This document shows positions 1,527 through 63,601 of a stretch of 64,000 nucleotides of DNA, piece by piece. Positions within the stretch are counted from its first letter, which is position 1, and each line of letters begins with the position of its first letter. The stretch is from contig NZ_JADFCO010000066.1 of assembly GCF_015356755.1 (NCBI RefSeq), positions 62,001-126,000 of the forward strand. The letters run 5' to 3'. Origin of the DNA: Nonlabens antarcticus. GTDB lineage: Bacteria; Bacteroidota; Bacteroidia; Flavobacteriales; Flavobacteriaceae. The notes beneath the pieces were generated by a model. That model saw only the letters and a program-made list of their open reading frames with translations, was not told where the DNA came from and ran no database searches. The translations under genes were made by a program, and so were the position numbers.

Positions 1527-1540
1527 GCTTTCGCGAAAGC
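1527..1540. repeat. Dispersed palindrome copy 1 (intergenic)
   Basis: Exact 14-base palindrome GCTTTCGCGAAAGC, intergenic, 126 bases before the membrane protein gene at 1666. The flanks (CTT and AAC) do not extend the symmetry. Confidence 0.9.
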
Positions 1541-1665
1541 AACTTTATCTTGTTATTTTGCAATCAATTATATGCAACAAGGCACTTTGTATTTTTAAAT
1601 GCCAACTTAAATTTAAGAATCTGGGAAAAACATATATTTGAAACTCTAGTAATACATAATAAGTC

Positions 1666-2100
1666 ATGCACACCGTACAACAGCCTAGCCACAATCTAGA
1701 ATTACTGCGAATTCTCTATATCGTTAAAGCCAGTTTTAATTTCTTAGGGGTTTTGTTTTTTATCGCTTATGCGAGCTTCGGTGCTTTGATGTTCAATTTT
1801 ATGGATGAAATACCTAATGCAAATGGATCCGAAGAATTTCCTTCTCAGCTCAGCTGGATATTTGTAATTATTGGCGTTTTGGGTGCTTTGATTTGTCTGG
1901 TTTTTGCCGTTGTTACATTAATCGCGGCAAAACGCATCAAGGAACGTCGCAATGAAACCTTCATATTTGTAGTAGGTGTCATCAACTGTTTTACTGGAAT
2001 ACTGGGAATAGGATTGGGAGTTTTTACGTTTGTAGAAATGACAAAACCTCACGTAAAAGCATTATTTCAGCCTTCTGTACAGGACAGCACAGAATTCTAA
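1666..2100 (+). CDS. Small integral membrane protein, unknown function
   Basis: The 144-residue product shows three or four hydrophobic stretches, at about residues 18-45, 65-88 and 97-120, with short polar loops such as KRIKERRNE near residue 90. I do not recognise a family; it loosely resembles small DUF4870- or CPBP-free four-helix membrane proteins that Bacteroidota encode in number. It stands alone, convergent with the DUF1569-like gene that ends two bases later on the other strand. No function can be inferred from the neighbours. Confidence 0.65.
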   Translation: MHTVQQPSHNLELLRILYIVKASFNFLGVLFFIAYASFGALMFNFMDEIPNANGSEEFPSQLSWIFVIIGVLGALICLVFAVVTLIAAKRIKERRNETFIFVVGVINCFTGILGIGLGVFTFVEMTKPHVKALFQPSVQDSTEF

Positions 2101-2101
2101 A

Positions 2102-2575
2102 CTAGGTACCCTTTATAATATCCCGCATTATTTTCAAATGGTGGTTCGTGTGAATTCCTAAAAATTTCACCGTTTCATCACGCTTCAATGATCCAAAAAG
2201 CGGATGCCTAAAATGCGCCCATTCTGGCAATTCATGAATGGAGTTGACCCGAGCGTAAGCTTCTTCTCCTCGACTTTTAATTTCTTCTATGGAAAGATGA
2301 TTTTCATCTGGAACCACATTTTTAGGTGATACTCCTTTTCCTCTGGGAATCCATTTAAAGGTCATAATCACCCATTTTATGATAGAAGTTTTAGGCTTGT
2401 AGTCCTCTTTTTTAGAAAGACGTAACATTTCTGGTACTCCTTCCAGTATTCTGTAGCTGTGATCAACGTGCCAGTAAATTCCTTCTTTTGAAACTTCTAG
2501 ATTTGTGATGTTTCCCAACTTTAAATAGGATTCAAGCTCGTTAAATTCCTCTTGTAATGGATTTTTCATAGACAT
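2102..2575 (-). CDS. DUF1569/DinB-like putative metal-binding protein
   Basis: The 157-residue soluble protein carries the features of the DUF1569 branch of the DinB four-helix fold: a histidine in helix 2 (WHVDHSYRIL), and a C-terminal HPLFGSLKRDETVKFLGIH-like segment followed by THHLK-type histidines. In DinB folds three spaced histidines bind a divalent metal, and thiol or stress roles are suggested but usually unproven. It lies 8 bases downstream of the GreA-like gene on the same strand, so the two are probably co-transcribed. The specific substrate is unknown. Confidence 0.6.
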   Translation of the reverse strand: MSMKNPLQEEFNELESYLKLGNITNLEVSKEGIYWHVDHSYRILEGVPEMLRLSKKEDYKPKTSIIKWVIMTFKWIPRGKGVSPKNVVPDENHLSIEEIKSRGEEAYARVNSIHELPEWAHFRHPLFGSLKRDETVKFLGIHTNHHLKIMRDIIKGT

Positions 2576-2583
2576 CTTTGTTT

Positions 2584-3051
2584 CTAAAGTATGTTTTCTA
2601 TTATAGAATTCTTACCGTTAAATATAATGGGGTCCCCTTTTCTTTTCCCTTTTAGAGATTTGCCCAGTGGTGATTCTAGCGATAGTACAAAAACCTCTTG
2701 TTTGTTCATTGTGACTTTCCCGATACCTACCGCAAGATAAAAAAAGCCCAAATCTGATTTGATAAGTGCTCCCTTATCGGCAGCAATCATCACCTTTTCC
2801 GGATCGATGGACTTTAAGTGGTTCATACGTCCTTTAGCCTCTGCTTGCTGGCGTCTGTATAATTCTTCTTGGTTCTGGATCATTGCCATTCCAGTTTCAT
2901 ATTTGTCACCAGCGCTGCTTTTGGTTTCACTATTTTTTGCCTCCATCAATTGGTCCAGACTTGACTGGATGGTATCCAGTTGTGCTTGAACTAGATCTAT
3001 ACAATGCTGGTGAATTTGTGATTTCAAAGAAAGAAGGGTGTCGATGCTCAT
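2584..3051 (-). CDS. GreA/GreB C-terminal-domain-like protein
   Basis: This 155-residue protein begins with a long predicted coiled coil (about residues 1-75, including SSAGDKYETGMAMIQNQEEL). It ends with a small domain whose SPLGKSLKGKRKGD segment resembles the SPxxxALxGKxxGD core of the GreA/GreB C-terminal domain. That suggests a factor that might act at the RNA polymerase secondary channel, but the N-terminal acidic tip of true Gre factors cannot be confirmed. Homologues are often mislabelled as 3-oxoacyl-ACP synthase; nothing here supports that name. It lies just upstream of the DUF1569-like gene and just downstream of the fasciclin lipoprotein gene. Confidence 0.5.
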   Translation of the reverse strand: MSIDTLLSLKSQIHQHCIDLVQAQLDTIQSSLDQLMEAKNSETKSSAGDKYETGMAMIQNQEELYRRQQAEAKGRMNHLKSIDPEKVMIAADKGALIKSDLGFFYLAVGIGKVTMNKQEVFVLSLESPLGKSLKGKRKGDPIIFNGKNSIIENIL

Positions 3052-3052
3052 T

Positions 3053-4182: not shown

Positions 4183-5361
4183 ATGGCAAAAGTAGTAGTA
4201 GGGCTTTCAGGTGGTGTAGATTCCAGCGTCGCCGCACATTTATTGAAGGAGCAGGGCCACGAGGTCATCGGTCTGTTTATGAAAAACTGGCATGATGATA
4301 CCGTTACCATTAGTGATGAATGCCCGTGGTTAGAGGATTCTAACGATGCGATGCTTGTTGCAGATAAGTTGGGAATTCCATTCCAGTCGGTAGATTTAAG
4401 TGAAGAATATAAGGAGCGTATCGTTAACTATATGTTTGATGAATATGCTCGTGGTCGTACCCCTAATCCTGATGTGCTGTGTAATCGCGAGATTAAGTTT
4501 GATGTGTTTATGGACATCGCAATTGACCTGGGAGCTGACTTTGTCGCGACGGGTCACTATTGCCAAAAAACCACAACGAGAGAAAATGGTGTTGAGATCC
4601 ATCACCTGATTGCTGGAGCAGATTCTGGAAAAGATCAAAGCTATTTTTTATGCCAGGTGTCACAAGAACAACTTGCCAAAACTCTTTTTCCCATAGGTCA
4701 TCTGCAAAAATCTAAAGTCCGGGAGATTGCGGCGAGCCAGGACCTTATTACCGCTGGAAAAAAGGACAGTCAAGGCTTGTGCTTTATCGGTAAGGTAAGG
4801 TTGCCAGATTTTTTACAACAGCAACTCAAGCCCAAAACTGGAAATATAATTGAGATTCCGTCGGAATTGAGTGTTTCAAGAATGAAGGAATTGAGTAATG
4901 ATGATGAGGCGGTTTCGCTTTCGCGAAAGCGAACTTATCAAGAATCAGAGGGAACTTTAAAAGGACAGCATCAAGGAGCGCATTTTTTCACGCGAGGGCA
5001 GCGTCGTGGGCTTCATGTAGGTGGAACGCCAGAGCCTCTATTTGTTATAGAAACTGATGTGGAATCAAATACAATTTATGTGGGGCAGGGAAAGATGCAC
5101 GCTGGTTTATACCGTCGCGGACTATATATAAAACCCGAAGAAACGCACTGGATTCGCACCGATTTAAGGTTAGAAGATGGGGAAACCATGGAGGTTATGG
5201 GTCGTATCAGATACCGTCAGAAATTAGAGAAAGCAACACTTGTGCAGCGTACAGAGGGGCTTTACATGATTTTTGATGATCCGCAGAGTGCTATATCGCC
5301 TGGTCAATTTGCCGCTTGGTATCAAAATGAAGAGTGTTTGGGATCTGGTGTAATTGCTTAA
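4183..5361 (+). CDS. mnmA: tRNA-specific 2-thiouridylase MnmA
   Basis: MnmA makes the 2-thio group of wobble uridine 34 in tRNA Lys, Glu and Gln. The 392-residue protein has the PP-loop ATP site GLSGGVDSS (residues 7-15), catalytic cysteines Cys100 in [12 protein letters not shown] and Cys200 in DSQGLCFIG, and the later [15 protein letters not shown] segment of the central domain. A copy of the dispersed palindrome encodes LSRKR at residues 246-250, inside a long linker between the catalytic and central domains, so activity should be kept. It heads a plus-strand run into the subtilase gene 9 bases on. Confidence 0.95.
4917..4930. repeat. Dispersed palindrome copy 2 (inside mnmA)
   Basis: Exact GCTTTCGCGAAAGC; symmetry extends to TTCGC and GCGAA. 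It is read as LSRKR at residues 246-250 of MnmA, in a linker. Confidence 0.9.
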
Positions 5362-8567: not shown

Positions 8568-10763
8568 TTAATAACAGTCCATTTTCAACTGGTCTTTATG
8601 AACTAGTTCGTCCAGACTTAAATCAGGTTCATCTTTAAGAATTATTTCTAAGGTGTCTAAAACATCATTTTGCATCGCTAATGAACCACAAATCATGATT
8701 ACTGCATTATCCTTTATTTTTTGAAGAACAAAATCTTTTTGCTCTAAAAGACCATTTTGAACATACTGCTTAGTTCCTTCCTGAGAATAGAATTTTTGAA
8801 CCTGGTTTTTTTTGGAATCTTTGGAGATCTGACTGAAAATATCTTCGTAAATCCCTGCAGATTGAGCTCTACGGCCACCCCAGAAAAGATGTATGTCCGT
8901 TTTCTTATTTTCTAATAGCATTCCTAGAAACGGAGCGATACCTGTGCCGTTCGCAATTAATAGGGCAGATGCTGCCTTTTTCGGTAAATGGAAATCGGCG
9001 TTTTTTTGAAGGGCAGCTTTGACCTGAGACCCTTGTTGAAGTTCTGATAAGTAGGAAGAACATTTTCCTAAATCGTGTTTTTTAATGCTTAGCAATATTT
9101 CATTATTCCATCGCGCAACGGAATATTCCCGAACTATATCACTGTCTGGAACTTGGATGGCAAGCAGATCACCTGAAGAAAAAGCTATCCTGCGTTTTGA
9201 TTTTAACCTCAATAAAAAGGTGTCATCAAGATTTAATGGCGATCGCTCTACGACTTCAAAATCTTGATATTTGAGTTTTTTCTTTTTGGCTTTGGGCAAT
9301 TTGACTTTAATATCAATTCCCGTAGTTCTAGACCATTCTCGCGTCCAGTTTTGGAAAGCACTTTGACTAGCATTGTTGATTTTATGAAGCTCTAGGACAG
9401 GCTGAAAACGCTCTTGCTTTTGCAGTGATTGATCCACCTCGATGGCATACTGGCAGTACTCTGGATATTCTAGTGACCCAAATCCCACCACGCTATATTT
9501 AATAGCTTCCATTGATTTTTGGGCAAGAATGGCCGCTTCAAACTTTCTGGCATTTGTAGGTGCTTCTCCATCACCATAGGTGGCCGTGAAAATGATGAGG
9601 TGTTCCGCTTTCGCGAAAGCGGAATAGTCATTCATTTCTGTCATAAAAACAGTCTTTCCAGCAGCTATCAATGCATTGCAAAATCTTGCTGCAAAATCAC
9701 GAGTTGTTCCGGTTTCAGAACCCACTAAAATGACAAATTCTGCCTTATCGCGATCGCTCAAAACTCCCTGCTGGATCACTTTTTTCCTGCGACGTAAAGC
9801 CATTGCAAATCCAGAATACATAAAAAACAAGAGGGAAAGGCTGGTCAATAGCAAGACGATGGACCACAAAATGCTGCCTTGTCCCGTATGCAGTATCATG
9901 CTGAGTCTAAAGGAAACCATCACAAATGGATAAGTTGCGCTGCTTTCAACAATACCACTTTGCGCATTCACGCGTATTTCTTTATCCTGCAATGCCACCT
10001 GATAATACTCTGATGGGTCATCAGAAAACGGAAATTCGACCATTCTAACGTCGTCCAGAAATATCTCTTCAAATGGAGATAGCATTTTAGATTTCCCACT
10101 TTCAGTATTTTCCAACGCCGGATTATTCTGAACATGAACAAGCGAGCTGTCTGGCAATAAATCAAATTTCTCCACCGAAAGAAAAACACCAGTAGCCGCG
10201 ACAATAATTATTGGAATAAAAAACCAGCGACTTAAAATCACATGGTATCGCATGGTAAAACGATCCTTTTGAACTTTGGCGAAAAGTCCTTTCAAGCCAC
10301 CTTGACGCTTGAATAATAGGAAGAATCCAGTCACTGCAATAAGCACCAAAAGAAAAGAAACTAATCCCACAAAAATCCGCCCGATGCTTTTTAAGAATAA
10401 AGACCGGTGCAAGTTTGTAGAGAACTTATAAATTTCAGATCGCTTTTCGACAGCGCCTAATTCTTCTCCAGTTCTAGGATTGACATAAACATCCCGCGTT
10501 TCAAAATCTGCAGTAAGAACGGAAGCCTTTACAAAGCCAGACGGTTCCACTTCCAGCGTGAAAATTTCATCATAATTTTCATCTAGGATTTCAATGGTAG
10601 AAACAAGAGAAACTTCCTCAAGGTTTTCTATTTCATAACCTTTATTTTGATGCTGTATAGGCTCTACGGCAAGAATAATTCCCGTAACGCAAGCAAGGAT
10701 TAGAAATATAGAAGAAACTAAGGCCAGCGCCAGATGGCTGAATCGCCAGATGGAAATCGTCAT
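8568..10763 (-). CDS. PepSY membrane domain fused to flavodoxin and FAD/NAD(P)H reductase
   Basis: This 731-residue fusion has an N-terminal PepSY-associated membrane region (helices near residues 10-33, 135-155, 190-212 and 295-320). A flavodoxin domain starts at FVILVGSETGTT near residue 347, followed by a ferredoxin-reductase-like module with REYSVARW for FAD and LLIANGTGIAPFLGML for the nucleotide. The layout is that of membrane ferric or siderophore reductases and of sulfite reductase flavoproteins; it should pass electrons from NAD(P)H through FAD and FMN to a periplasmic acceptor. A palindrome copy encodes SAFAKA at residues 381-386 in the flavodoxin domain. It is last in a three-gene operon. 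Confidence 0.85.
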   Translation of the reverse strand: MTISIWRFSHLALALVSSIFLILACVTGIILAVEPIQHQNKGYEIENLEEVSLVSTIEILDENYDEIFTLEVEPSGFVKASVLTADFETRDVYVNPRTGEELGAVEKRSEIYKFSTNLHRSLFLKSIGRIFVGLVSFLLVLIAVTGFFLLFKRQGGLKGLFAKVQKDRFTMRYHVILSRWFFIPIIIVAATGVFLSVEKFDLLPDSSLVHVQNNPALENTESGKSKMLSPFEEIFLDDVRMVEFPFSDDPSEYYQVALQDKEIRVNAQSGIVESSATYPFVMVSFRLSMILHTGQGSILWSIVLLLTSLSLLFFMYSGFAMALRRRKKVIQQGVLSDRDKAEFVILVGSETGTTRDFAARFCNALIAAGKTVFMTEMNDYSAFAKAEHLIIFTATYGDGEAPTNARKFEAAILAQKSMEAIKYSVVGFGSLEYPEYCQYAIEVDQSLQKQERFQPVLELHKINNASQSAFQNWTREWSRTTGIDIKVKLPKAKKKKLKYQDFEVVERSPLNLDDTFLLRLKSKRRIAFSSGDLLAIQVPDSDIVREYSVARWNNEILLSIKKHDLGKCSSYLSELQQGSQVKAALQKNADFHLPKKAASALLIANGTGIAPFLGMLLENKKTDIHLFWGGRRAQSAGIYEDIFSQISKDSKKNQVQKFYSQEGTKQYVQNGLLEQKDFVLQKIKDNAVIMICGSLAMQNDVLDTLEIILKDEPDLSLDELVHKDQLKMDCY
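9607..9620. repeat. Dispersed palindrome copy 3 (inside PepSY-flavodoxin reductase gene)
   Basis: Exact GCTTTCGCGAAAGC with symmetric flanks TTCC and GGAA. Read on the minus strand as AFAKA in the flavodoxin domain. Confidence 0.9.
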
Positions 10764-12900: not shown

Positions 12901-12926
12901 TATTCCGCTTTCGCGAAAGCGGAATA
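12901..12926. repeat. Dispersed palindrome copy 4 (intergenic, 26-base perfect palindrome)
   Basis: The exact core at 12907-12920 is flanked by TATTCC and GGAATA, so all 26 bases are a perfect inverted repeat with no loop. It lies 148 bases upstream of the ankyrin gene. There is no adjacent T-run, so it is not a normal terminator. Confidence 0.92.
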
Positions 12927-13070: not shown

Positions 13071-16000
13071 TTATTTTACTTCCAATGTCGAATAACCATG
13101 GCTGTCGCGCCTTAACACGACTTGAGTTTGAATCCGTTCTTTTAAAGACTCTACATGCGAAATAACACCGATAGTTTTACCCGATTCCGTTTGTAATTTT
13201 TCTAACGTATCCATCGTTTGATCTAAAGTTTCTGGATCCAGCGTCCCAAACCCTTCATCAATAAACATGCTCTCAATCCGCACTTTTTTTGAAGCTAAAT
13301 CTGATAGGGCGAGTGCCAGCGCTAGACTCATGACAAAAGTTTCCCCTCCAGAAAGCGTTTTAACAGACCTGCGTTGACCGCCCATATGATCATCAATGGC
13401 GATCAGACTGTCATCTTCATCTGGCATAGATTTATCAATGGTGTATCGATCGCTCAATTGCTCCATGCGTTTGTTGGCAAATAGCAGCAACCTCGATAAG
13501 GTCAGGTCTTGCGCAAAATCATTAAACTTATTTCCCGTGGAGTCGCCTATGAGTTCGTTGAGTACTCGCCATCTTTTTACATGGGCAGAATGCTTTTCAA
13601 TCTTTTCTTTTAAGTCCTCAATTCGCTTTAAACTCTCTAGCTGATTCTTTGTCTTTCTTTCACTATTATTAACCAACAGATCTAATTGCTCTAACCTGCT
13701 TGAAATAACGACTAGTTTTTCCTCAATACTTTCTAAAGATTCTTCAGGATTTTTCTCTAGTAGTTTTTCCAACTGGGCAGCTAGGGTTTGCAGTGTAGAT
13801 TTTTGTGATTCAATGCCAGTATTTAATCTTCCACGCTCTTTATTTAGGTTGAGATAGATGTTATCAGGCAACCTTGCTAGCGCGGCATCTTCAATAGATT
13901 TAAATTCTAAGGAAATAAGAGCTGCGTTCAAATCATTTGTAAGATTTGATAACTGCTTCTGGGAATCGTCTAGTTCGACATTCTGGGTGTTTTCTGCTCT
14001 TTTGATACTACTTTCTTGAGATTGTAGTTTACTCCAGTTGGTTTTAATGCTATTGACATCTCTATTAAGATTGTCGCCTTTGTAAATTTTCTCAAGCTCT
14101 GTTGTGATTTTATTTCCGTCAATAATTGTTGCTTGCATGTGGGGAACAAGCTTTTCTGCGGCCACTAGAGCGTTCAATCGGGCTTGTATATCTATATAGA
14201 GTTTCAAGGCAACCAGTTTTTCTTTAGAAATTACAGCTTGTTTTTCTAACTCCTCAGAATCCATGGGCAAGCCTTCATAATCAGATGTAAAAAGGAACTT
14301 TATTTTCTCGAACTCATTATCAATTTTTGATTTTTTCTCATTTAGTTCAATTAAGGATTCATTGACGGATTTGGATTCGGCACTTGTTTGGGTAATCGCA
14401 GTTTCTAATGTGCGTAAAGCTCTTTTATTATCATTTATTTTACTTTCCATCTCATCATCGCTGGATTGTAAATCTTTTGCATAAGGATGATGAACAGATC
14501 CACATAATGGGCATGGATGCTGCTCAACTAATTTATTTCTTAAATCTTCCAGACTAGCAGATAACAGGTGGTTTTCTTGTTGCAGTTGAAGAACTTTTTC
14601 ATCTTTTGATTCTAGTAGATGCTTGTCACTAAGAATTTTTAAATGCTCAGGAAATGATTTTTGTTTATCGGTAGCGATTTTGATTTTTTCAAGTAAACTG
14701 GAAGACTCAGTTTTAAGAGGTTCGATGCGATCGTTTAAGCGTATAGCCTTTTGCAGCTGGTCTATTTCTTTTTCTAGGCGTGGTTCATGTTTTTTTAGTT
14801 GGTCTATATCAGAGCTTGGGACAATTGGAATGAGTTCTTCCTTCCTCCGTTTCAAATCTAATTTGAGTGCCGCCAACTTTATTTCTAGTAAGTCAATTGA
14901 TGGGTTCTTATCTAGATCTAAAGGACGGAGTTCTCCATTTAATTGTGCTTTAAGCTCATTATGCTTAGAACGCAGGGCTTCACGCTTTTGGATTAAGTCA
15001 GATACTTTATCTCTAAAAGTTTCTAGGGATTCTGCAGCGTCTTGTTTTTTGATTTCGGCGCCTAAAAACGTTGCAGTTGTTCTTGATAGGTTATTTTCTT
15101 CCTGAACTAGTTGCTCTTTCTCCGTTTTTAATTCTGCGAGTACTTTTGTCTTTTGCGTAATGATTTTCCGCAATTCTTCCCATGTTCTGAGCTTTTCAGA
15201 TATAGTTTGGGTTTTTTCATGAGCATCAAGTTTGCTCCCGTTTTGTTGAAAAAAGTCTGCTTGTTCTTTTAATTGTAGTGTTTGTTTCGCTTTCGCGAAA
15301 GCGATTTCTTCATTCTTCCCGGTAATCTCTTTTAAAACAGTTTGATCAGCTTTAAGTTTTTCCAGTTCTTTTAAAGTAGCCTCTTTTTCTACTTTCAGTT
15401 TTTTAAGATCTTTTTGGATCTGTTCAAAAATCTCATCCTCAATTAGATTATTCTTTTCGTAATTGATGTTTGTTTCCTCGCTTTTGATGAGTTCACTTGC
15501 CTGCTTGTTTTTTTCGAAAGCACGAGCACCTAACTGCCGGTAGATTCCAGTACCCGTTATTTTTTCCAGCAACTCGCTGCGTTCTTTTTTAGGAACTTTG
15601 AGGAATTGAGCAAATTCGCCTTGAGCGAGCACCACACTTTTTATAAACTGCTCATAATTTAAACCTATAAATGCTTCGTTTTTTGCAGGAACTTCCGACT
15701 TTTTGAGCGGCAGTTCTTTTCCGGAAACTACGTTTTTCAACTGCATTTCATAATCCCGCAAACTTCCTGTTCTAGCTGTCGAGATACTCCAGGTGGATTG
15801 AAAAATCCCTTTGGTACAAGAATAAGTGATACTTGCATAAGCATCCTGCTGATTCTTAGTCAGAACAGCGCCCGTATCATTAATAGTATTTTTTGTAATA
15901 CGCCCCAATCGTGGAACTATAGTAAACAGGGCTAAAGAAATTACATCTAGAATGGTGCTTTTTCCGCTTCCAGTGGGACCCGTAATCGCAAATAGCGAAT

Positions 16001-18170: not shown

Positions 18171-18977
18171 TTATTCTGTTGCAGATTTAAAGATCATAAT
18201 CAGTCGATCAGAGGTTTTTTCATCGAAATCTTCCAATTGATAACTCCCATAAACTTGTTCTAATTCTAGTCCTGCAGCTTTAAAATATTTTTGGAAATCG
18301 GCTAGAGTTAGGGCTTGAACGCGTTCTGTAAAATGATAGCGATTCCCGTCGTCTTTAAAATTGATATCCTTGAAAATATAACCGTCTTCCAATCGACGGT
18401 TTTGCTCAAAAGTGATTCCTTTTTCGGTTTTCTCGTTATAAGGAACAAGGTTTTCAATCACTTTTTTCACGTTAAAAAAGTCAATCACACCACACGCACC
18501 AGGTTTCAAACTGAGTTTGATGGCCTTAATAGTTCTCAAATTATCCTCTGAGTCATCAAAATAACCGAAGCTGGTAAACAAATTGAAAACGGCATCAAAT
18601 TTTGCAGGATATGTTTCGGTCATGTTGTGGACTGCAAATTGGATTCGGTCAAGGTTTACGGGACCTGTTCCTAGCTCACCCAACTCCAGATTTCCAGATT
18701 TAATGTGTTTTAATTTTGCTTTCGCGAAAGCGATACTGCTCTCACTCAAATCCACACCGGTAACCTCATAGCCCAACCTATTGAGGAAAATACTGTGACG
18801 GCCACGGCCACAGGCAAGATCTAAAATTTGCGCGTTAGGCTCCAATTCTAATCTGGCAGTAAGGCTTTTCATAAACTGTCCAGCCTCGAGATAGTCGCGA
18901 TCGCGGTAAAGTATGTGATAATAGGGTGTGTCAAACCAGCTGGCATACCACGTGATCTCGTCTTTTCTATCGCTCAT
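18171..18977 (-). CDS. Class I SAM-dependent methyltransferase
   Basis: From the preferred start (MSDRKDEITWYASWFD) the protein has 268 residues. Motif I reads ILDLACGRGRHS, motif II VTGVDLSESSI and the acidic post-motif segment FDAVFNLFTSFGYF. An in-frame ATG 11 codons upstream exists but lies closer to the divergent gene and adds residues not expected of the family. The substrate is unknown. A palindrome copy encodes IAFAKAKL immediately after VDLSESS, where the family usually has a similar helix (IxxAKxKA), so the palindrome seems to fit the normal fold. It precedes the ZIP transporter gene. Confidence 0.85.
   Translation of the reverse strand: MSDRKDEITWYASWFDTPYYHILYRDRDYLEAGQFMKSLTARLELEPNAQILDLACGRGRHSIFLNRLGYEVTGVDLSESSIAFAKAKLKHIKSGNLELGELGTGPVNLDRIQFAVHNMTETYPAKFDAVFNLFTSFGYFDDSEDNLRTIKAIKLSLKPGACGVIDFFNVKKVIENLVPYNEKTEKGITFEQNRRLEDGYIFKDINFKDDGNRYHFTERVQALTLADFQKYFKAAGLELEQVYGSYQLEDFDEKTSDRLIMIFKSATE
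18718..18731. repeat. Dispersed palindrome copy 6 (inside methyltransferase gene)
   Basis: Exact GCTTTCGCGAAAGC; read on the minus strand as AFAKA in the helix after motif II of the methyltransferase. Confidence 0.9.
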
Positions 18978-20414: not shown

Positions 20415-20824
20415 TGGAAAGAAAAATTGATATAAAAAATTTGAATTCGCCTAAATACCGCGCTCTGACAAGTGCAGGAGGCATTCTCATTCTTATAGCG
20501 CTGGCAAGCTGGTGGTTAGAAGGTCCAGATTATGTGGCGTATACCGCTGCAGCTTTGGGGGTGACTGCATTTACTGTATTGAGTATGGATGGTTTTACAG
20601 CAGCAAATTCCGTTTCTTATGGTGGGAAAAGCGTGACCATGAAATTACTGGGCAATAAAACCATCGGATTTCTATTTAAAGATATTCAGGAAGTGAATCT
20701 GCAGGAACCGGGACTACTGATACGAGTGGAAGGAATGGAGGCTGTTAAGCTTTCGCGAAAGCGGTACACAGAAGAGTCTCTAGAGGAATTAACGAAATTA
20801 TTAAATGATAAAAAAGACAAATAA
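20414..20824 (+). CDS. Small membrane-anchored protein, unknown function
   Basis: The 136-residue protein starts at GTG within the preceding stop codon and has two hydrophobic helices (about residues 16-32 and 38-55). A cytoplasmic beta-rich tail follows that looks PH-like (GYGGKSVTMKLLG-type strands, FKDIQEVNLQEPGLLIRVEG). A palindrome copy encodes LSRKR at about residues 113-117 in that tail. Its stop overlaps the ettA start (TAATG). I do not recognise the family; coupling suggests shared expression with ettA, not necessarily shared function. Confidence 0.65.
   Translation: MERKIDIKNLNSPKYRALTSAGGILILIALASWWLEGPDYVAYTAAALGVTAFTVLSMDGFTAANSVSYGGKSVTMKLLGNKTIGFLFKDIQEVNLQEPGLLIRVEGMEAVKLSRKRYTEESLEELTKLLNDKKDK
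20749..20762. repeat. Dispersed palindrome copy 7 (inside small membrane protein gene)
   Basis: Exact GCTTTCGCGAAAGC; read on the plus strand as KLSRKR. Confidence 0.9.
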
Positions 20825-26697: not shown

Positions 26698-27918
26698 TTA
26701 ATTTCTGAGCAATCTTTTTCGATTTACTTGGAATTCCATTTTCTGGCCATTCTTTAGATATTGAACCGTAATGGAGTCCAATTTTTCTTCCACCTTATTA
26801 TTAGTTAGACGGCAAGCAGATAGCTTGTTTAGATTCTGCAAACTAGTGTTGTTGATAGAAAGGATTGTATCTCCTATCTTAATAGGTAAATCGATTTCTG
26901 GAATTGTATAGGCTACGATAGCCTTCAGGGTATTTAATCTATAGGCAAACCCAAAAGTTTTATAGTCTGAATTATCATTAGGCGCCACTTCTTTCCAATA
27001 GATTTTATTGGTTTTCCAGTCAATAATAGAGATATAATTGTCAATCAATTCATTCCCTATCAAGTTAGAATTCCCATTTCTAATAACGATATCTTCTAGT
27101 TGAATACCTCCTAAGTCGATTTGTTTCACTTTATAAATAGATCGTTCCTGCGCTTTCCCAGCCCCAAAAATCCCTGCAGATAAAACTCCTGAGATTGTCA
27201 CCTTTTCGAAATTATCTAAATGTTCTGATTCATTTATTGTAACGCCGCCAGTGAAGCCCGTATCATAGGTAAATTCTGTTTTTTGATCATTGATGGTCAC
27301 ATCAAAAAGTGGCGTCATCTGCGGTTTTTTAGGATGAAATCCTATAGTTTCAAAGTCTGAGGCATCAAAAGCTTCCAGAGAATTTGCGATTTGAATTTCT
27401 TTTTTTTGATAGTCAAATTTCCAGACGGACACCGCCATTTGATTAGCTCCTAAAATCCCGTCATATCCCATACACTCTATTTCAAAGGCAGTATCAAGGT
27501 CATTTACAACGGCGCCCACGTTGCGGTAAGTCAGGCTGCCCAATTTTATTTCTGGGACTACTACAAATTGTTGATTTTTCTTGACTCCTTGAGAATCTCC
27601 CATCTGGTAATCCTTACTTTTCTTGATATTCAAATCTGCCAAAATCGCAGATGAAATTATGGTAGGTGCTCCCGTGTCCACAAGAAATCGGTAGGTTTTA
27701 GAATTGATTTCCACTTGCACGATGGGCAAGTCATTATATTCAAAAGGGATGGTTACAATTTGCTCATTTCCAGAAACGCTTTCTTTTCCAAAAACTTTCA
27801 ACGCAGTAGCACAGCCAGTGAAAATGAGGCAAATCATTATAATTATAAATGATTTAAAAGGAGTTTTCACGAAAGTTCGCTTTCGCGAAAGCGTGTTCAA
27901 CGACTTAATCAGCTTCAT
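26698..27918 (-). CDS. Lipoprotein aspartyl protease with PDZ domain
   Basis: The 406-residue protein has a lipoprotein signal with lipobox LIFTGC (Cys36), two retropepsin-like halves with DTGAP (residues 81-85) and DTGFTG (219-224), and a C-terminal PDZ domain (about 320-400, IKIGDTILSINNTSL). It should be a periplasmic or outer-membrane-anchored aspartic protease. A palindrome copy encodes LSRKR at residues 10-14, giving the basic n-region of the signal peptide; the next ATG (codon 28) would leave too short a signal. It overlaps the upstream SIMPL gene by 14 bases. Confidence 0.87.
   Translation of the reverse strand: MKLIKSLNTLSRKRTFVKTPFKSFIIIMICLIFTGCATALKVFGKESVSGNEQIVTIPFEYNDLPIVQVEINSKTYRFLVDTGAPTIISSAILADLNIKKSKDYQMGDSQGVKKNQQFVVVPEIKLGSLTYRNVGAVVNDLDTAFEIECMGYDGILGANQMAVSVWKFDYQKKEIQIANSLEAFDASDFETIGFHPKKPQMTPLFDVTINDQKTEFTYDTGFTGGVTINESEHLDNFEKVTISGVLSAGIFGAGKAQERSIYKVKQIDLGGIQLEDIVIRNGNSNLIGNELIDNYISIIDWKTNKIYWKEVAPNDNSDYKTFGFAYRLNTLKAIVAYTIPEIDLPIKIGDTILSINNTSLQNLNKLSACRLTNNKVEEKLDSITVQYLKNGQKMEFQVNRKRLLRN
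27879..27892. repeat. Dispersed palindrome copy 8 (start of aspartyl protease gene)
   Basis: Exact GCTTTCGCGAAAGC; read on the minus strand as TLSRKR at codons 9-14 of the aspartyl protease, in the signal-peptide n-region. Confidence 0.9.
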
Positions 27919-43390: not shown

Positions 43391-43404
43391 GCTTTCGCGA
43401 AAGC
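43391..43404. repeat. Dispersed palindrome copy 11 (upstream of DUF421 gene)
   Basis: Exact GCTTTCGCGAAAGC with symmetric TTC..GA-type flanks; intergenic, 37 bases before the DUF421 gene start. Confidence 0.9.
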
Positions 43405-45105: not shown

Positions 45106-46554
45106 TTAACGGTTGAGGTATCCTAAAAGTGTGGTTTCAATCTTGTAGTAAAACAAATTGATGTTAGGATCAATAATGGTTAAGTTGCGATCGATGACCA
45201 TGCTGCGATTGCTGTTGCGCAATGCAAGTTGGCGATTGATGGCAGATTTGTCAAACAATAAATATTCTTTAGAATTCCTGAAGTCGTTATTTGATATGGC
45301 ATCCTGCCATACTTCAAAACTCAGATTGTCAATGTTGATGCCTATAAATTCAATTTCGGGATACTTCATTTGCAAATCTTTCACCTGATCATGAATTCCC
45401 AGCGCATAATCTTTGTCCTGTACAGACCAGTAATATAATACCGTCAATCGCTTTACGCGATTTGATAATTTTGTTTTTTTATTATTAGCATCTCGCAAAT
45501 CAAAATTAGGCAACTGGTTTCCAGGTCCTAAATTAATATAAGTTGCTGCCATTTGAGCCACTTGCTCATTAACAGTAGCATCTGTTGACATGGTCAGAAA
45601 ATCTGTTACTAACAAATTGATTTCTTTGGAATCTTTACCACCTCGAACAAAATTGCGTATCTCACCGGCGGCAAAATAATTTTGCAAATCAACGTTATCA
45701 AAAATGCTGTCAATAACCCGCAACCTCTCTTTATTATAACGATAACCCTTTAAATCAATTTGTAAATCAGGAGTTTTAGAAATGTTACGTAGAGCAATGT
45801 TTGAAGCTAACGCATTAGCATATGGTCTAAAGGCATAGTTGTTTAATAATTTTGACTTATCAATTTCTACGCGTTCGCGATGTGCAAAGAACTCCTTAGG
45901 GAACTTAATGCTTTTGTCTCGATAGATATTTTGACTGTGAACAACAGGGTAACGCTCAAGTTCATAGTAACTGTTTAAATTGATGATAAAAGTTGCAAAG
46001 TCCTGAAAGCGTTGTTCAAATTTATGTTTGGTAGCTGCTTTTTTGAATTTCTTTAAGCGATTTTTTTTAACTTCTTGAACGTGATCGTAAAAAACCTGAG
46101 GCGCGAGGTTTTTATACTTGAGCATTCCCATGTTTGAATCCTCAATATCTATAAAAAGATTGATAAGATAATTATTTTCTCTAGCTTGAGAACCCGTAAA
46201 AGATAAGGTCTCATCAAATGCTTTGGTGTTAGCACGCATGCTCAAACTATCTCCAGGCTGCAGATAAAAAGACTGATATTCGCCGGGATAAGAAATTGAG
46301 AAAAGTCCAGAGTCTATGGTTTGGTAGGAGATATTGAACCTTCCTTTTTCATCTAATTTTAAAGTGTCTGTGAGGTTAGCATAATCTGAAATTATAATGT
46401 AATCAGATTTAGGATTAACTATTTTGCCGTTGATGTAGGTAGTCGATGGTTTTTCCTCTTCACAAGAAATGAAGATCAGTGTGAACAAAATTCCTATGGC
46501 AAAGAGTAAATATGATATAGTCCGCTTTCGCGAAAGCGTGTAAATTTCAGTCAT
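45106..46554 (-). CDS. Thioredoxin-fold (TlpA/DUF4369-like) lipoprotein lacking CXXC
   Basis: The 482-residue lipoprotein (lipobox IFISC) has an N-terminal beta-rich DUF4369-like domain (about residues 35-140) and a helical middle. A C-terminal thioredoxin-like domain starts near LPNFDLRDANNKKTKLS, with RLTVLYYWSVQDKDY where TlpA/ResA proteins have WxSWCxPC. No CXXC is present, so dithiol-disulfide chemistry is not expected; a binding or structural role is more likely. A palindrome copy encodes LSRKR at codons 7-11, the basic n-region of the signal peptide. Confidence 0.82.
   Translation of the reverse strand: MTEIYTLSRKRTISYLLFAIGILFTLIFISCEEEKPSTTYINGKIVNPKSDYIIISDYANLTDTLKLDEKGRFNISYQTIDSGLFSISYPGEYQSFYLQPGDSLSMRANTKAFDETLSFTGSQARENNYLINLFIDIEDSNMGMLKYKNLAPQVFYDHVQEVKKNRLKKFKKAATKHKFEQRFQDFATFIINLNSYYELERYPVVHSQNIYRDKSIKFPKEFFAHRERVEIDKSKLLNNYAFRPYANALASNIALRNISKTPDLQIDLKGYRYNKERLRVIDSIFDNVDLQNYFAAGEIRNFVRGGKDSKEINLLVTDFLTMSTDATVNEQVAQMAATYINLGPGNQLPNFDLRDANNKKTKLSNRVKRLTVLYYWSVQDKDYALGIHDQVKDLQMKYPEIEFIGINIDNLSFEVWQDAISNNDFRNSKEYLLFDKSAINRQLALRNSNRSMVIDRNLTIIDPNINLFYYKIETTLLGYLNR
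46524..46537. repeat. Dispersed palindrome copy 12 (start of TlpA-like gene)
   Basis: Exact GCTTTCGCGAAAGC; read on the minus strand as TLSRKR at codons 6-11 of the lipoprotein gene. Confidence 0.9.
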
Positions 46555-48693: not shown

Positions 48694-50523
48694 ATGTCAG
48701 ATATCATTCGTTTATTACCAGATCATGTAGCTAACCAGATTGCAGCAGGTGAGGTCGTTCAAAGACCGGCAAGTGTGGTAAAGGAATTATTGGAAAATGC
48801 CATTGATGCTTCCGCGAAAGCGATTACACTCATCATTAAAGATGCCGGCAAAACCCTAGTTCAAGTCATTGACGATGGAAAGGGAATGAGCACCACTGAT
48901 GCTCGCATGGCGTTCGAAAGGCACGCAACCTCAAAAATATCTACGGCTCAGGATTTATTCAATCTCGCCACAAAAGGATTTAGAGGGGAAGCACTGGCTT
49001 CTGTAGCGGCGATTTCTCATGTGAGCGTTAAAACCCGTCGTGAAGAAGATGACCTAGGAACTCAAATCGATATCGAGGGAAGTAAGGTCACATCTCAAGA
49101 ACCGGTCGTGACACCGCAGGGAACCATGATAAGCGTGCGCAATTTGTTTTATAATGTTCCCGCTCGCAGGAAATTCCTGAAATCTGATAGCGTGGAATTG
49201 CGCAACATTACAAATGAATTTCACAGGGTCGCGATGGCCCACCCACAAATTGCTTTTAAGTTTCTAAACAATGACAGTGAGTTGTTCAACCTTCCATCTG
49301 GAACCTACAGACACAGGATTGTCAATATTATGGGGTCTCGCGTTGATGATAAACTTGTTCCCATAAAAGAAGAAACAGAGCTGCTTACCATTCACGGTTA
49401 CATAGGTAAGCCTGAATTTACACGTAAAACTAAAGGGCTCCAGTACTTTTTTGCAAACGATAGATTTATAAAACACTCCTATTTGCATCATGCCGTTGTG
49501 AGTGCATTTGAAGGATTGTTGGCGGATAAGGCTAATCCTAGTTACTTTCTTTATCTAGATGTCCCAACAGACAGTCTCGATATTAATATTCACCCTACAA
49601 AGACTGAGGTTAAGTTTGAGGATGAACATAGCCTGTACGCGATTGTTCGAGCGACTGTAAAACACGCGCTGGGTCAGTTTAGTATTGATGCCATCGATTT
49701 TCAAAAAGACACTGAGTTGGATTTGCCGTATAATATCGCTAAAAATGGTACTCAAGCACCTCGAATAGATGTCGATCCTGATTTTAATCCGTTTAAGGCT
49801 GATGGGGGTTTAAAGCAGGCTTCTGGAAACGCTAATTTTCAATCCAAAGCCACTGGATCCTGGGATACTTTGTATGCTGGACTGGAAGACTCTTCTACCA
49901 TGAATGATGAGAGTTCTCTACATCCAGATATGGAAACCTTATTTTCTAAAGAGGAATCAACCGATAAAAATATATTCCAACTCCAGCGTAAATTCATTAT
50001 CAGTACACTTCAAAGCGGTTTACTGGTGATTAATCAAAACCGGGCGCACGAGCGTGTTTTGTATGAGCAGCTATTGCGACAACTAACGGTGCAAAATGGG
50101 GTCAGTCAGCAGTTGTTATTTCCCATCAGTTTAGAACGACCGTTGGAAGAGGTAACGATCCTATCACAATTGCAAGCCGAGTTAGAAAGCGTCGGTTTTC
50201 TTTTTAAGACTTTAGAAAAAAACCTGATTGAGATTGAAGGCTTGCCTCTAGATTTGAAATCGGCAGATGTAGAAGGATTGCTGGATTCTATAATAAGATT
50301 TCAGCAAGAGGAATTACCGGAAACTAATTTCTCTCATGTGGATCGATTAGCTTCTAGAATGGCTGCAAGTATGGCTATTAAAACGGGTGATGCACTTAAC
50401 GGCCAGCAGATGCAACAATTGATTGATGAACTTTTCGCCTGCAAGGAGCCAGAACTGACGGCACAGGGAAGAAAGGTTTTTATTAATATCACGGGTGAGA
50501 ACCTGAACTCAAAATTCAATTAA
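48694..50523 (+). CDS. mutL: DNA mismatch repair protein MutL
   Basis: The 609-residue protein has the GHKL ATPase motifs ELLENAIDA (residues 31-39), DDGKGM (60-65) and KGFRGEAL, then the transducer domain and a C-terminal dimerisation domain from about residue 430. The C-terminal endonuclease motif DQHAxxExxxxE appears as NQNRAHERVLYE, with the glutamates kept but Asp, His and Ala changed. A one-mismatch palindrome copy at 48808-48821 encodes DASAKAI next to the ATP-site Asn. It is followed by two rhomboid genes 3 bases away. Confidence 0.94.
   Translation: MSDIIRLLPDHVANQIAAGEVVQRPASVVKELLENAIDASAKAITLIIKDAGKTLVQVIDDGKGMSTTDARMAFERHATSKISTAQDLFNLATKGFRGEALASVAAISHVSVKTRREEDDLGTQIDIEGSKVTSQEPVVTPQGTMISVRNLFYNVPARRKFLKSDSVELRNITNEFHRVAMAHPQIAFKFLNNDSELFNLPSGTYRHRIVNIMGSRVDDKLVPIKEETELLTIHGYIGKPEFTRKTKGLQYFFANDRFIKHSYLHHAVVSAFEGLLADKANPSYFLYLDVPTDSLDINIHPTKTEVKFEDEHSLYAIVRATVKHALGQFSIDAIDFQKDTELDLPYNIAKNGTQAPRIDVDPDFNPFKADGGLKQASGNANFQSKATGSWDTLYAGLEDSSTMNDESSLHPDMETLFSKEESTDKNIFQLQRKFIISTLQSGLLVINQNRAHERVLYEQLLRQLTVQNGVSQQLLFPISLERPLEEVTILSQLQAELESVGFLFKTLEKNLIEIEGLPLDLKSADVEGLLDSIIRFQQEELPETNFSHVDRLASRMAASMAIKTGDALNGQQMQQLIDELFACKEPELTAQGRKVFINITGENLNSKFN
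48808..48821. repeat. Dispersed palindrome, one-mismatch copy (inside mutL)
   Basis: GCTTCCGCGAAAGC has one change (T to C at the fifth base). Read on the plus strand as ASAKA beside the conserved NAIDA. Confidence 0.7.
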
Positions 50524-52601: not shown

Positions 52602-52625
52602 AGTTCGCTTTCGCGAAAGCGAACT
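52602..52625. repeat. Dispersed palindrome copy 13 (intergenic, 24-base perfect palindrome)
   Basis: The exact core at 52607-52620 with flanks AGTTC and GAACT gives a perfect 24-base palindrome. It is intergenic, between the TRIC gene end and the four-helix protein gene start. Confidence 0.92.
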
Positions 52626-55910: not shown

Positions 55911-56665
55911 AGTTGAAAATTTTCATGCTATTCTTTTTGTGTTTCGCTTTCGCGAAAGCGCAATCCCTTCAAGATCTCGTTCCAGAAATAGAACAGCGCC
56001 CCAGACAGATAACGGACACGCTAGATCGGGACTATGATAACCGAAGTCTTACCGTAAACGAGCTTCCGGAGGATTTGAAGGAAGCTTATAATGGTGCTGA
56101 TTTTGATTATGAGGAGACTACAAATGAGGTGGATAATATTTTTTCTAAATTTTTTGACTGGCTTTTAGGGAAGTTGGGATCATTATTTGGAATTGATATC
56201 AGTCCATTTTGGGCCATGGTGCTCAAATGGATAATCTATGGATTGTTTGCTGCAATAGCGATCTATTTTTTAGTGCGATTATTAGCAAATGAAAAGGCTT
56301 CAGGAATACGTTCCCGAGGTAAAACTACCAGAAACCAAATTAAAGTCCTGGAAACCCACATTGAAGAAATTGACCTGAACCAGTTCATTAAAGATGCTAT
56401 TGCAAACAGTAATTATAGAAATGCTGTGCGTTACTTGTATTTGAATTCGCTCAAGAAACTAAGCGCTAGTGGTAAGATTGACTGGGACTTTCAAAAAACC
56501 AATAGTGATTACTACCGTGAACTCACCGACCAGTCGCTAAAAGAGCAATTTAAAAAAGTCTCTTATTTGTACGACTACATCTGGTATGGTGAGTTTCCTA
56601 TTGACGAGCAGGCTTTCGCGAAAGCGCAAACCGAGTTTGAGATTTTGAATAAACAGGCAGCCTAA
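55907..56665 (+). CDS. DUF4129-type membrane protein with palindrome-encoded signal cleavage site
   Basis: The 252-residue protein has a signal peptide (residues 1-18), a periplasmic stretch, one membrane helix near residues 105-128 and a cytoplasmic DUF4129 domain (DLNQFIKDAIANSNYRNAVRYLYLNSLKKLSASGKIDW...SYLYDYIWYGEF). The palindrome encodes AFAKA at residues 14-18, which makes the AKA-Q signal peptidase I site. A second copy encodes QAFAKAQ at about residues 235-241. It is in the MoxR/DUF58 operon, overlapping the DUF4350 gene by one base. Confidence 0.85.
   Translation: MKLKIFMLFFLCFAFAKAQSLQDLVPEIEQRPRQITDTLDRDYDNRSLTVNELPEDLKEAYNGADFDYEETTNEVDNIFSKFFDWLLGKLGSLFGIDISPFWAMVLKWIIYGLFAAIAIYFLVRLLANEKASGIRSRGKTTRNQIKVLETHIEEIDLNQFIKDAIANSNYRNAVRYLYLNSLKKLSASGKIDWDFQKTNSDYYRELTDQSLKEQFKKVSYLYDYIWYGEFPIDEQAFAKAQTEFEILNKQAA
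55946..55959. repeat. Dispersed palindrome copy 14 (signal peptide of DUF4129 gene)
   Basis: Exact GCTTTCGCGAAAGC; read on the plus strand as AFAKA at codons 14-18, forming the signal peptidase site. Confidence 0.9.
56612..56625. repeat. Dispersed palindrome copy 15 (C-terminus of DUF4129 gene)
   Basis: Exact GCTTTCGCGAAAGC; read on the plus strand as AFAKA near residue 236, 666 bases after copy 14 in the same gene. Confidence 0.9.
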
Positions 56666-62162: not shown

Positions 62163-62411
62163 TTACTTATCTATGGATCCCATTACTTTTTGTGCAAAAG
62201 CATTTGCTGCTTCAATGCCGCTCATTCCTTGATTCACATTATTATGAACCTCTAGCGCTCCACAGATATTAGTTATCAACTCGCCTACCACGTCCATTTC
62301 CTCTTCAGATACAGATCTGTGTTCGACAAAGTATTCAAGAACTTCCAGGGTAGTTTCTAATTGCTCTGGTGTAGTTCCTTTTTGAAGGTGTCTAATTACT
62401 GGTAATTTCAT
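62163..62411 (-). CDS. Small DUF6952-like protein
   Basis: The 82-residue protein is mainly helical (TTPEQLETTLEVLEYFVEHRSVSEEEMDVVGELITNICGALEVHNNV) and ends with GIEAANAFAQKVMGSIDK. It matches a small flavobacterial family that lies after a thioredoxin and near peroxiredoxin (DUF6952, from memory). It overlaps the thioredoxin gene by 20 bases, implying coupling and a joint role in the thiol-redox system; the activity is unknown. The AFAQ-like end does not come from a palindrome. Confidence 0.7.
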   Translation of the reverse strand: MKLPVIRHLQKGTTPEQLETTLEVLEYFVEHRSVSEEEMDVVGELITNICGALEVHNNVNQGMSGIEAANAFAQKVMGSIDK

Positions 62412-62703
62412 TTACTAGGTCTTTAAGGTTTTCAAATTTGTTAGTCTGTACTTGATTGACAAAGCTTCCGCCCTTGAAAGTAGCAAATGTGGGTAGATTA
62501 TCCACGCTAGCTAGTTTTCTAGATTCAGGGAATTTCTCTGCGTCTGCAAGGATAAATATGGTGTCCTCGTTTTCTGAAGCTAGTTTTTTAAACTTAGGCT
62601 TCATCACGCGACAGTTTCCACACCAGCTCGCCATATATTGTACTACAACTGTTGGATTGTTTGCTACAATTTCCTGTAAGTTATCTTGTTCTAATGTTTG
62701 CAT
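62392..62703 (-). CDS. Thioredoxin-family protein
   Basis: The 103-residue protein has a thioredoxin fold with MASWCGNCRVMKPKFKKL (CGNC at 28-31) and the cis-proline segment DNLPTFATFKGG. CGNC instead of CGPC suggests a less reducing, special-purpose thioredoxin. It lies between the peroxiredoxin gene upstream and the DUF6952-like gene, which overlaps its end by 20 bases. It probably serves as electron donor in the same redox block. Confidence 0.9.
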   Translation of the reverse strand: MQTLEQDNLQEIVANNPTVVVQYMASWCGNCRVMKPKFKKLASENEDTIFILADAEKFPESRKLASVDNLPTFATFKGGSFVNQVQTNKFENLKDLVNEITSN

Positions 62704-62905
62704 TTTTCTAGTATTAAGTAGTCCATATTTAGTAGTTGGATCAAAGAAAATGTCTAGACATTTCTATAAGTTAAAACTACTAAATACTACTACAGATATT
62801 GATGATTTCTGAAATATTCAGTGCTAAATATGTAATACTTAGAAGGTGAAAATTAGCATTGTGCTAAGCTTTAAAACCTAATTATTACATTCTAACTACT
62901 GAAAA

Positions 62906-63541
62906 TTAGTTCTGGGATAGGTATGCTGCAGTCGCTAGACGATCTGCTTTCATCGCATCTTTTCCTTCTTCCCAGTTTGCTGGACAAACCTCTCCATTCT
63001 TTTGAACGTGCGTGTACGCATCGATCATTCTTAAGAATTCGTTTACGTTACGTCCTACTGGCATATGATTAACACCTTCATGAAACACAGTTCCTTCCTC
63101 ATCGATTAAGTAGGTCGCACGGTAAGATACCATGTCCCCTTTGAGTAAATAACCTTCTAAGTCGTCGTTATAAACTTCCTCTACATCAAGAATATCGAGC
63201 ATATTTGCAAGATTTCTATTGGAATCTGCAAGGATAGGATAGGTTACACCTTCAATCCCACCGTTATCTTTTGAAGTATTTAACCATGCAAAGTGAACCT
63301 CTGCAGTATCACAAGATGCACCGATAACGATCGTATTTCTTTTTTCAAATTCACCTAGAGCGTCTTGAAAAGCGTGTAATTCAGTTGGGCATACAAAGGT
63401 GAAATCCTTTGGATACCAGAATAAGATTACTTTTTTGTTATTATTTTTTGCTTCTTCCAGAACGTTGATTTGGAACGTGTCGCCCATTTCGTTCATTGCA
63501 TTTACATTTAAATCTGGAAATTTTTTACCTACTATGGCCAT
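62906..63541 (-). CDS. Peroxiredoxin (2-Cys, AhpC/Prx1 type)
   Basis: The 211-residue enzyme reduces peroxides. It has the peroxidatic Cys51 in DFTFVCPTELHAF and a resolving Cys near residue 186 in GEVCPANW, plus PVGRNVNEFLRMIDA. The paired CP and CPANW motifs fit typical 2-Cys peroxiredoxin. The promoter (TATCTTTG on the minus strand, 63574-63581) has a dispersed palindrome in its spacer. The thioredoxin gene is 202 bases downstream on the same strand. Confidence 0.93.
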   Translation of the reverse strand: MAIVGKKFPDLNVNAMNEMGDTFQINVLEEAKNNNKKVILFWYPKDFTFVCPTELHAFQDALGEFEKRNTIVIGASCDTAEVHFAWLNTSKDNGGIEGVTYPILADSNRNLANMLDILDVEEVYNDDLEGYLLKGDMVSYRATYLIDEEGTVFHEGVNHMPVGRNVNEFLRMIDAYTHVQKNGEVCPANWEEGKDAMKADRLATAAYLSQN

Positions 63542-63573
63542 TATAATATCTTTTTTAGATTGTTTTAGTACTG

Positions 63574-63581
63574 CAAAGATA
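63574..63581 (-). promoter_or_regulatory. Promoter -7 element of the peroxiredoxin gene
   Basis: The minus strand reads TATCTTTG, an exact TAnnTTTG match, 32 bases before the start codon. The palindrome at 63588-63601 starts 6 bases upstream and fills the -13 to -30 spacer. Confidence 0.6.
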
Positions 63582-63587
63582 GGTTCC

Positions 63588-63601
63588 GCTTTCGCGAAAG
63601 C
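63588..63601. repeat. Dispersed palindrome copy 16 (peroxiredoxin promoter)
   Basis: Exact GCTTTCGCGAAAGC, intergenic, within the promoter spacer of the peroxiredoxin gene. Confidence 0.9.

Follow-up and report, generated by a model that had tools for sequence, protein, structure and literature searches.

A 14-bp palindrome dispersed over the genomes of Nonlabens and related Flavobacteriaceae: evenly spaced, position-conserved candidate binding sites of a host protein

Introduction

Among the described motifs that recur over bacterial chromosomes, the highly iterated palindromes (HIPs) of cyanobacteria are the nearest kind to the element treated here, a palindrome of 14 bp, GCTTTCGCGAAAGC, with 16 exact copies in a 64-kb stretch of the genome of Nonlabens antarcticus (G000:C66:62001-126000, hereafter the window). 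Like the palindrome, HIP1 and the other HIPs are perfect, occur in hundreds of copies within as well as between genes, and are lineage-specific and constrained. They differ in length (8 bp, whereas the palindrome has a 14-bp core and a weak consensus of about five to eight bases on each side), in sequence and in host, the palindrome being an element of Flavobacteriaceae. HIP sequences have been linked to orphan methyltransferases (PMC4390886, accessible text). For the palindrome, which recurs regularly once per 4–5 kb (HIP spacing was not compared), no methyltransferase link is known, and none was searched for.

Two further kinds of site invite comparison. The parS and Noc sites are palindromes of about 14–16 bp read by a dimeric chromosome protein; the likeness concerns the mode of working only, the palindrome having hundreds of sites chromosome-wide. 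Chi, which in Escherichia coli occurs about once per 4.6 kb, is similar in density, but the known examples of Chi, being read on one strand, are asymmetric and short.

The DNA uptake sequences (DUS) of Neisseria and the uptake signal sequences (USS) of Haemophilus are asymmetric motifs. They share with the palindrome abundance, regularity, conservation of place, absence from new DNA, A/T-rich flanks and clade dialects; the palindrome, however, has two equal half-sites, is carried by some temperate-phage contigs and is four to five times sparser than USS, for which the accessible part of PMC7811141 gives a spacing of about 1 kb. For the Neisseria DUS, a spacing that matches conversion fragments, exact conservation of 71% across all genomes, a lack of copies in genes acquired recently and location in permissive places were reported (PMC2397512, accessible text), and many of these features are shared by the palindrome.

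In the present study a trans-acting property of a few lineages was found to maintain the palindrome at its places, which we regard as established. As to its nature, our tentative preference is for evenly placed binding sites of a host protein, probably serving chromosome organisation.

Results and Discussion

Abundance and lineage restriction

Over the whole genome of N. antarcticus (G000; 3,270,668 bp in 66 contigs) the palindrome has 611 exact copies and the reversed control pattern none, so that its count is neither near random outside the window nor owed to one mobile element. With up to two mismatches allowed, 19 copies lie in the window, compared with a mean of 0.27 in dinucleotide shuffles, and 0 of 100 shuffles reached 19. 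About 344–346 kb of the genome held 68 exact, 19 one-mismatch and five two-mismatch copies, with an exact expectation that rounds to 0.0; the 14-mer is nearly all-or-none. One control palindrome differs from the motif by two bases, which inflates the two-mismatch control counts; only the exact and one-mismatch columns of the mismatch controls were used. Huge genome-wide over-representation of a palindrome is a trait of the HIP class in the wide sense and was found here; the HIP1 sequence itself, GCGATCGC, was counted nine times in 346 kb, and the palindrome is neither HIP1 nor a close derivative of it.

At least one exact match was present in 53 of 249 Flavobacteriaceae genomes, an even sample of a larger group. 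Only five of these hold hundreds of copies, namely N. antarcticus, G010 (578) and G242 (664) of the same genus, G190 (408) and Dokdonia sinensis, G206 (857, or 1017 with up to one mismatch), and the other 48 hold 1–17. Named genomes, counted with up to one mismatch, yielded 603–766 copies in seven of Nonlabens type and 668–1058 in five of Dokdonia. A scan of named genomes returned at least 108 stretches, and among the matches listed 71 came from Nonlabens, BBFL7 or Dokdonia. In an RpoB tree the genus of N. antarcticus clustered with Nonlabens xiamenensis and BBFL7 with full support, and G190, Dokdonia and Leeuwenhoekiella formed one clade, Nonlabens being separate with modest support (Shimodaira-Hasegawa-like approximate likelihood ratio test, SH-aLRT, 87–88). 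G010 and G242 are 99.9% identical in RpoB.

The metagenome-assembled genome (MAG) SAT149, labelled Cytophagaceae (L223, L249, L273, L427) and with a count of 430 when up to one mismatch is allowed, was rejected as a further rich lineage, being a mixture of Nonlabens-like and Dokdonia-like contigs. MAG SAT51 (224 copies at the same threshold), in which one 19-kb contig lacks any copy, groups with Leeuwenhoekiella by RpoB; it may be mixed and was not used as evidence. In MAG P03SST1bin.21 (L408-L417) a 13-bp core, CTTTCGGCGAAAG, was seen 11 times in 200 kb, ten of these within the same dispersed 17-mer GCCTTTCGGCGAAAGCC; as it has the same half-sites with one base between them, it could be a dialect of the palindrome, which is only suggestive. 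A repeat of Saprospiraceae HKST-UBA18 is an ordinary tandem array. In motif-poor relatives of four genera (100 kb each) no other palindrome of 12 or 14 bases occurred more than twice, and no prior description of the 14-mer or its 10-bp core TTTCGCGAAA was found in the open full-text literature, most subscription papers lying outside that search. The 14-mer stands in none of the papers covered; the core occurs in ten, none of which concerns this subject to judge by title and opening of the abstract.

Regular spacing and conserved positions

The 100 gaps between copies on five contig stretches of N. antarcticus had a coefficient of variation (CV) of 0.50, compared with 0.96 ± 0.09 for random placement; none of 5000 simulations was as even, and two gaps were shorter than 1 kb where 18.1 were expected. 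A first set of gaps from this genome had given a CV of 1.12, not below random, because a copy-free gap of 53 kb was included; gaps shorter than 2 kb numbered 7 of 68 in that set, 21.8 being expected. G010 and G242 together (45 gaps) had a CV of 0.43, again with 0 of 5000 simulations as even. In G206 and G190 the spacing is weaker but still regular (CV 0.72 in both, reached in 58 and 25 of 5000 simulations, respectively, vs 0.97–0.98 at random). Twenty 20-kb stretches of the G190 chromosome, on which origin and terminus were not located, held 0–4 copies each (47 in total) with no visible trend.

Sites were compared between genomes via reciprocal best protein matches, a directional procedure in which shared sites count from both sides. 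Within Nonlabens, 60 directional comparisons gave 54 exact sites, three near-copies and three places without a copy, and the site was exact in 8 of 11 comparisons at 35–60% protein identity. Between clades, sites were shared in 10 of 32 comparisons of Nonlabens with G190, 2 of 12 of Nonlabens with Dokdonia and 4 of 12 of Dokdonia with G190. In a protein of 41% identity N. antarcticus and G190 have the same 14-mer in the same frame; one other shared Nonlabens-G190 pair stands in different reading frames and may be coincidence. Either a common ancestor already had the motif, or some places acquired it on two occasions.

Conserved places and regular spacing are traits of DUS and USS as well, and the main alternative is an uptake-signal-like mark of self, by which competent cells would favour palindrome-bearing fragments, copies accumulating and being repaired through molecular drive as in the Neisseria DUS and the Haemophilus USS. 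We consider this possible rather than likely; in our analysis it would stand as a close second to chromosome organisation because the DUS, as described in the accessible text of PMC2397512, resemble the palindrome in how they are conserved, how they are spaced and in being missing from new DNA. By a formula in that text, ln(42 × exact/one-mismatch ratio), the palindrome reaches 4.9–5.9 vs 4.3 for DUS (ratio 2.4), the pull on the motif being similar in order to that on DUS or slightly higher. Further points on this side are the outer bases of the site, which vary by clade in the manner of dialects, and Riemerella columbina, another member of the Flavobacteriaceae, which prefers its own DNA (PMC7965970, accessible part). 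ComEC was present in 14 of 14 genomes tested, motif-poor ones (9 of 9) as much as the rest, and therefore does not discriminate. The palindrome, moreover, is perfect with equal half-sites, unlike the asymmetric DUS and USS.

In fetched stretches of the five motif-rich genomes (the C58 stretch, treated below, excluded), 104 of 150 copies lie in open reading frames (ORFs). ORFs make up 89.5% of that sequence, so intergenic places are enriched about threefold (binomial p 1.2e-11). The in-ORF copies divide 56:18:30 over reading frames 0, 1 and 2, and copies within the first 7% of an ORF seem more frequent than expected (15 of 104). A self-copying repeat, such as a repetitive extragenic palindrome moved by its transposase (REP/RAYT), a miniature inverted-repeat transposable element (MITE) or another small mobile element, or else a hairpin of RNA or single-stranded DNA, would explain the high copy number and the palindromic form; it is nevertheless very unlikely, given that most copies are genic, the shared flanks extend over only a few bases, positions are fixed within the genus and spacing is regular. 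The pattern typical of REP/RAYT and MITE, mainly intergenic with a long shared unit, was not found.

Core and flanks of the site

In Nonlabens the 14-mer lies within a weak symmetric consensus of about ATTYC-GCTTTCGCGAAAGC-GRAAT, which corrects the statement of an earlier note on this DNA that there was no neighbouring conserved sequence; a conserved flank of transposon type was not seen around the palindrome. Nonlabens prefers TTYC before and GRAA after the core, Dokdonia more often has TAC and GTA, and each half has its own weak consensus, with outer bases that vary by clade. In 24 tests, covering 172 copies from Nonlabens, 97 from Dokdonia and 59 from G190, the two flanks showed no covariation (smallest p 0.074), and two clades have fewer complementary pairs at positions -3/+3 than shuffled data. 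Compensating changes of the arms, the trait of stem-loops and cruciforms, were thus not found, and since the flanks are independent, a dimeric protein on double-stranded DNA fits better than a hairpin. Of the three options that the earlier note had offered, HIP1-like motif, uptake sequence and protein-binding site, the independence of the half-sites favours the last.

In G000 and G190 the central CGCG is changed in only 1 of 44 one-mismatch copies, whereas in the islands counted from other genera (11 of 17 fetched island-type stretches) it is changed in 5 of 8 (Fisher p 1.2e-4); the island copies are not fully independent, since the islands are mutually related. In G000 and G190 mismatches fall where a binding protein would be expected to tolerate them.

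A HIP1-like origin in the narrower sense, in which a DNA methyltransferase or a different modifying or sensing enzyme would be linked to the iterated palindrome, and mutation and repair bias at the modified site would keep it, would agree with a palindromic, very abundant and lineage-specific motif at constrained positions. We hold it to be improbable, as 14 fully constrained bases with flanks are long for a methyltransferase site and as TCGCGA outside the motif is neither depleted nor enriched: 346 kb of N. antarcticus contain 116 TCGCGA, 82 of them within TTTCGCGAAA, with 44.7 expected.

Conjugative element and phages

The copy-free gap of 53 kb (G000:C58:45586-98869; L288-L290), in which ten copies were expected, encodes BrxA, BrxB, BrxC, PglX, PglZ, BrxL, a TraG ATPase and a tyrosine integrase and, judged by these genes, is an integrated conjugative element with a full bacteriophage exclusion (BREX) set. 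Depletion in recently acquired DNA, a trait of DUS and USS, was thus found in this one element only; it is comparable to the USS-poor island of PMC7811141 (accessible part) and speaks for an uptake signal. Neither of the isolated Nonlabens phages P12024S and P12024L, which for most of their length are about 98% identical, contains a copy even when two mismatches are allowed (6.7 expected, P 0.0013); their annotations include no integrase, and they possess their own Erf/YqaJ recombination genes. At least 120 stretches in IMG/VR carry the motif. In 16 chosen records 1–7 copies each were counted, for instance seven in 37.4 kb and five in 27.0 kb; three of the virus records tested have an integrase or transposase, and some such contigs are near host density, which a slow drive through transformation explains less easily.

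A Chi-like role, in which a palindromic and hence direction-independent site would tame a nuclease of RecBCD/AddAB type, could account for a density near that of E. coli Chi and for the absence from both P12024 phages, with their own recombination genes, and from the conjugative element. It appears less probable still than a HIP1-like origin: Chi would not be expected to be a palindrome of 14 bp flanked symmetrically, and the asymmetry and orientation dependence typical of Chi were not found.

Apparent decay in other genera

Outside the motif-rich lineages many low counts come from clustered copies. In G078, G087, G101 and G215 an outer-membrane efflux gene (its Pfam assignment taken from one of the islands) of related heavy-metal islands contains a pair of copies separated by 933 bp, 16 exact copies lie within 78 kb in G076, and in G051 12 of 17 are on one contig. 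Such islands, with resistance-nodulation-division (RND) efflux, outer-membrane efflux, P-type ATPases and an ArsP-type permease, were seen to be common to several Flavobacteriaceae genera, with palindromes in conserved places (L150, L152, L153, L156 and relatives; also G000:C66:1-17000). G076:C3:32331-110016 (about 80 kb) and, in G051, C6 (38 kb) and C98 show host-like density in genomes otherwise almost copy-free. The central mismatches of islands have the look of neutral decay without maintenance of the site, and the islands presumably came from motif-rich donors.

In Leeuwenhoekiella G144 (RpoB 99.5% identical to L. marinoflava) nine copies are exact and 20 have one mismatch; at up to one mismatch, 29 copies were counted in the named genome of L. 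marinoflava and 26 in that of L. palythoae. In 54 other genomes picked from the 249 the sum of exact and one-mismatch copies was 0–8 (median 1). Five of the 20 one-mismatch copies of G144 are changed centrally (p 0.0096), and at least 4 of its 29 copies lie in island-type DNA. All 22 of the 29 copies that were examined lie in ORFs (of at least 70 aa), as expected if protein-coding constraint alone keeps them. One copy carries a central G-to-A change of a site exact in N. antarcticus (82.6% protein identity, island gene); one one-mismatch copy is common to G190 in the same codon. The genome count, the restriction to few lineages, even spacing, kept positions and this decay elsewhere bear out the view of the earlier note that the palindrome is a selected or copied motif and not a transposon.

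A host protein as proposed reader

On our reading, a sequence-specific protein encoded by the host would bind the palindrome, holding the DNA duplex as a symmetric dimer at about 600–850 sites per genome, one per 4–5 kb. Most likely the reader would be an architectural nucleoid protein, the site serving as an anchor, a loop or a segregation mark; it would need at least one site per few kb of resident DNA and gain little from a second site nearby. Symmetry, regular spacing and the prophages are the grounds on which chromosome organisation is favoured.

ParB, the only family followed as a candidate, was rejected as reader, a canonical ParB being present in every genome searched (PF02195, 30 of 249 genomes) and single in G010, G242, G190 and G206; a ParB-family protein with matching distribution was not found. 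N. antarcticus encodes two additional ParB-like proteins, each about 600 aa long, that are missing from these four genomes. In an alignment of 30 genomes one column splits the five motif-rich from the 25 other rows, outside the DNA-binding part, and within that part no change is common to the five. At one Dokdonia locus sites one mismatch from the parS consensus were seen.

Several observations weigh against a host protein that organises the chromosome. No DNA-binding reader was identified: besides ParB, small Nonlabens proteins that match Dokdonia or G190 better than motif-poor DNA (113 rows, part of each genome compared) included no DNA-binding candidate. The genome tolerates a 53-kb element devoid of copies, and the spacing in G206 and G190 is less regular than in Nonlabens. 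The density on virus contigs is biased upward because these were found by the motif. Finally, uptake sequences would equally be expected to be regularly spaced, to keep their places, to be missing from new DNA and to concentrate in permissive places, to go by the accessible text of PMC2397512.

Copies in the window

All 16 exact copies and both one-mismatch copies reported in the earlier note were recovered at its coordinates, and its division into ten genic and six intergenic exact copies agrees with the ORF list. Its density of one copy per about 4 kb applies to the window (1 per 4.0 kb) but not to the genome, which averages 1 per 5.35 kb.

Of the intergenic copies, 1527..1540 lies between ORFs 590-1270(-) and 1666-2100(+), 12907..12920 between 11257-12753(-) and 13071-16088(-), with flanks TTCC..GGAA, 28967..28980 between 27905-28636(-) and 29037-30668(+), 43391..43404 between 42821-43354(-) and 44085-44741(+), 52607..52620 between 52098-52565(-) and 52641-53279(-), with flanks GTTC..GAAC, and 63588..63601 between 62906-63541(-) and 63683-63964(-).

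Among the genic copies, 4917..4930 lies in the MnmA-like ORF 4183-5361(+) (tRNA_Me_trans), with its orthologous place retained in G010 and G242 (79% protein identity), and 38012..38025 in ORF 37761-38180(+), a methionine sulfoxide reductase (PMSR), likewise retained in both. The copy at 20749..20762, within ORF 20414-20824(+) without Pfam match, recurs in G242 at the same site and in the same reading frame at a protein identity of just 42% (G010: 41%). Further copies were located at 9607..9620 in ORF 8568-10763(-) (PepSY_TM/flavodoxin oxidoreductase), at 15289..15302 in sbcC, ORF 13071-16088(-) (AAA_23, SbcC_Walker_B), one copy-bearing gene among many, and at 18718..18731 in ORF 18171-19010(-), which has an S-adenosylmethionine (SAM) methyltransferase domain of Methyltransf_25 type, DNA as its substrate being unsupported. 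Two copies near protein starts are translated LSRKR: 27879..27892 in ORF 26698-27918(-), an aspartyl protease with PDZ domain, and 46524..46537 at the start of ORF 45106-46554(-), whose best reciprocal G242 match (47% identity) has a copy near its start although the surrounding DNA aligns poorly. LSRKR, which gives a positively charged N-terminal stretch, was also read in L064 and L082 (131-aa ORF). The DUF4129-like ORF 55907-56665(+), slightly below the Pfam cut-off, carries 55946..55959 near its start and 56612..56625 near its end, the closest pair of the window (666 bp).

The one-mismatch copy ACTTTCGCGAAAGC at 35527..35540, within ORF 34848-35660(-), is changed at the outermost base, a tolerated position, and GCTTCCGCGAAAGC at 48808..48821, within ORF 48694-50523(+), is the commonest tolerated variant. 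A two-mismatch copy at 24319 may be chance.

Conclusions

Somewhat more cautiously still, it may be proposed that Nonlabens, Dokdonia and G190 share a chromosome-wide marking by one dimeric protein, bound at about 400–860 evenly spaced palindromes and dividing the chromosome into units of about 4–5 kb, that it is old enough for some sites to have been kept between genera, that the system was lost in Leeuwenhoekiella with decay of its sites, and that resident prophages adopted the marks. It is rare for a whole bacterial chromosome to carry marks that are evenly spaced and conserved in position, and the function of HIP1 is still debated. Here both states exist in nature: some genera have 400–860 exact sites, and about 30 remnants are left in a sister genus, Leeuwenhoekiella. 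The motif also serves as a tracer, short runs in another genus pointing to DNA with a probable origin in these lineages. Either outcome would matter: a new nucleoid architecture or, within the literature searched, the first uptake-type signal in Bacteroidota.

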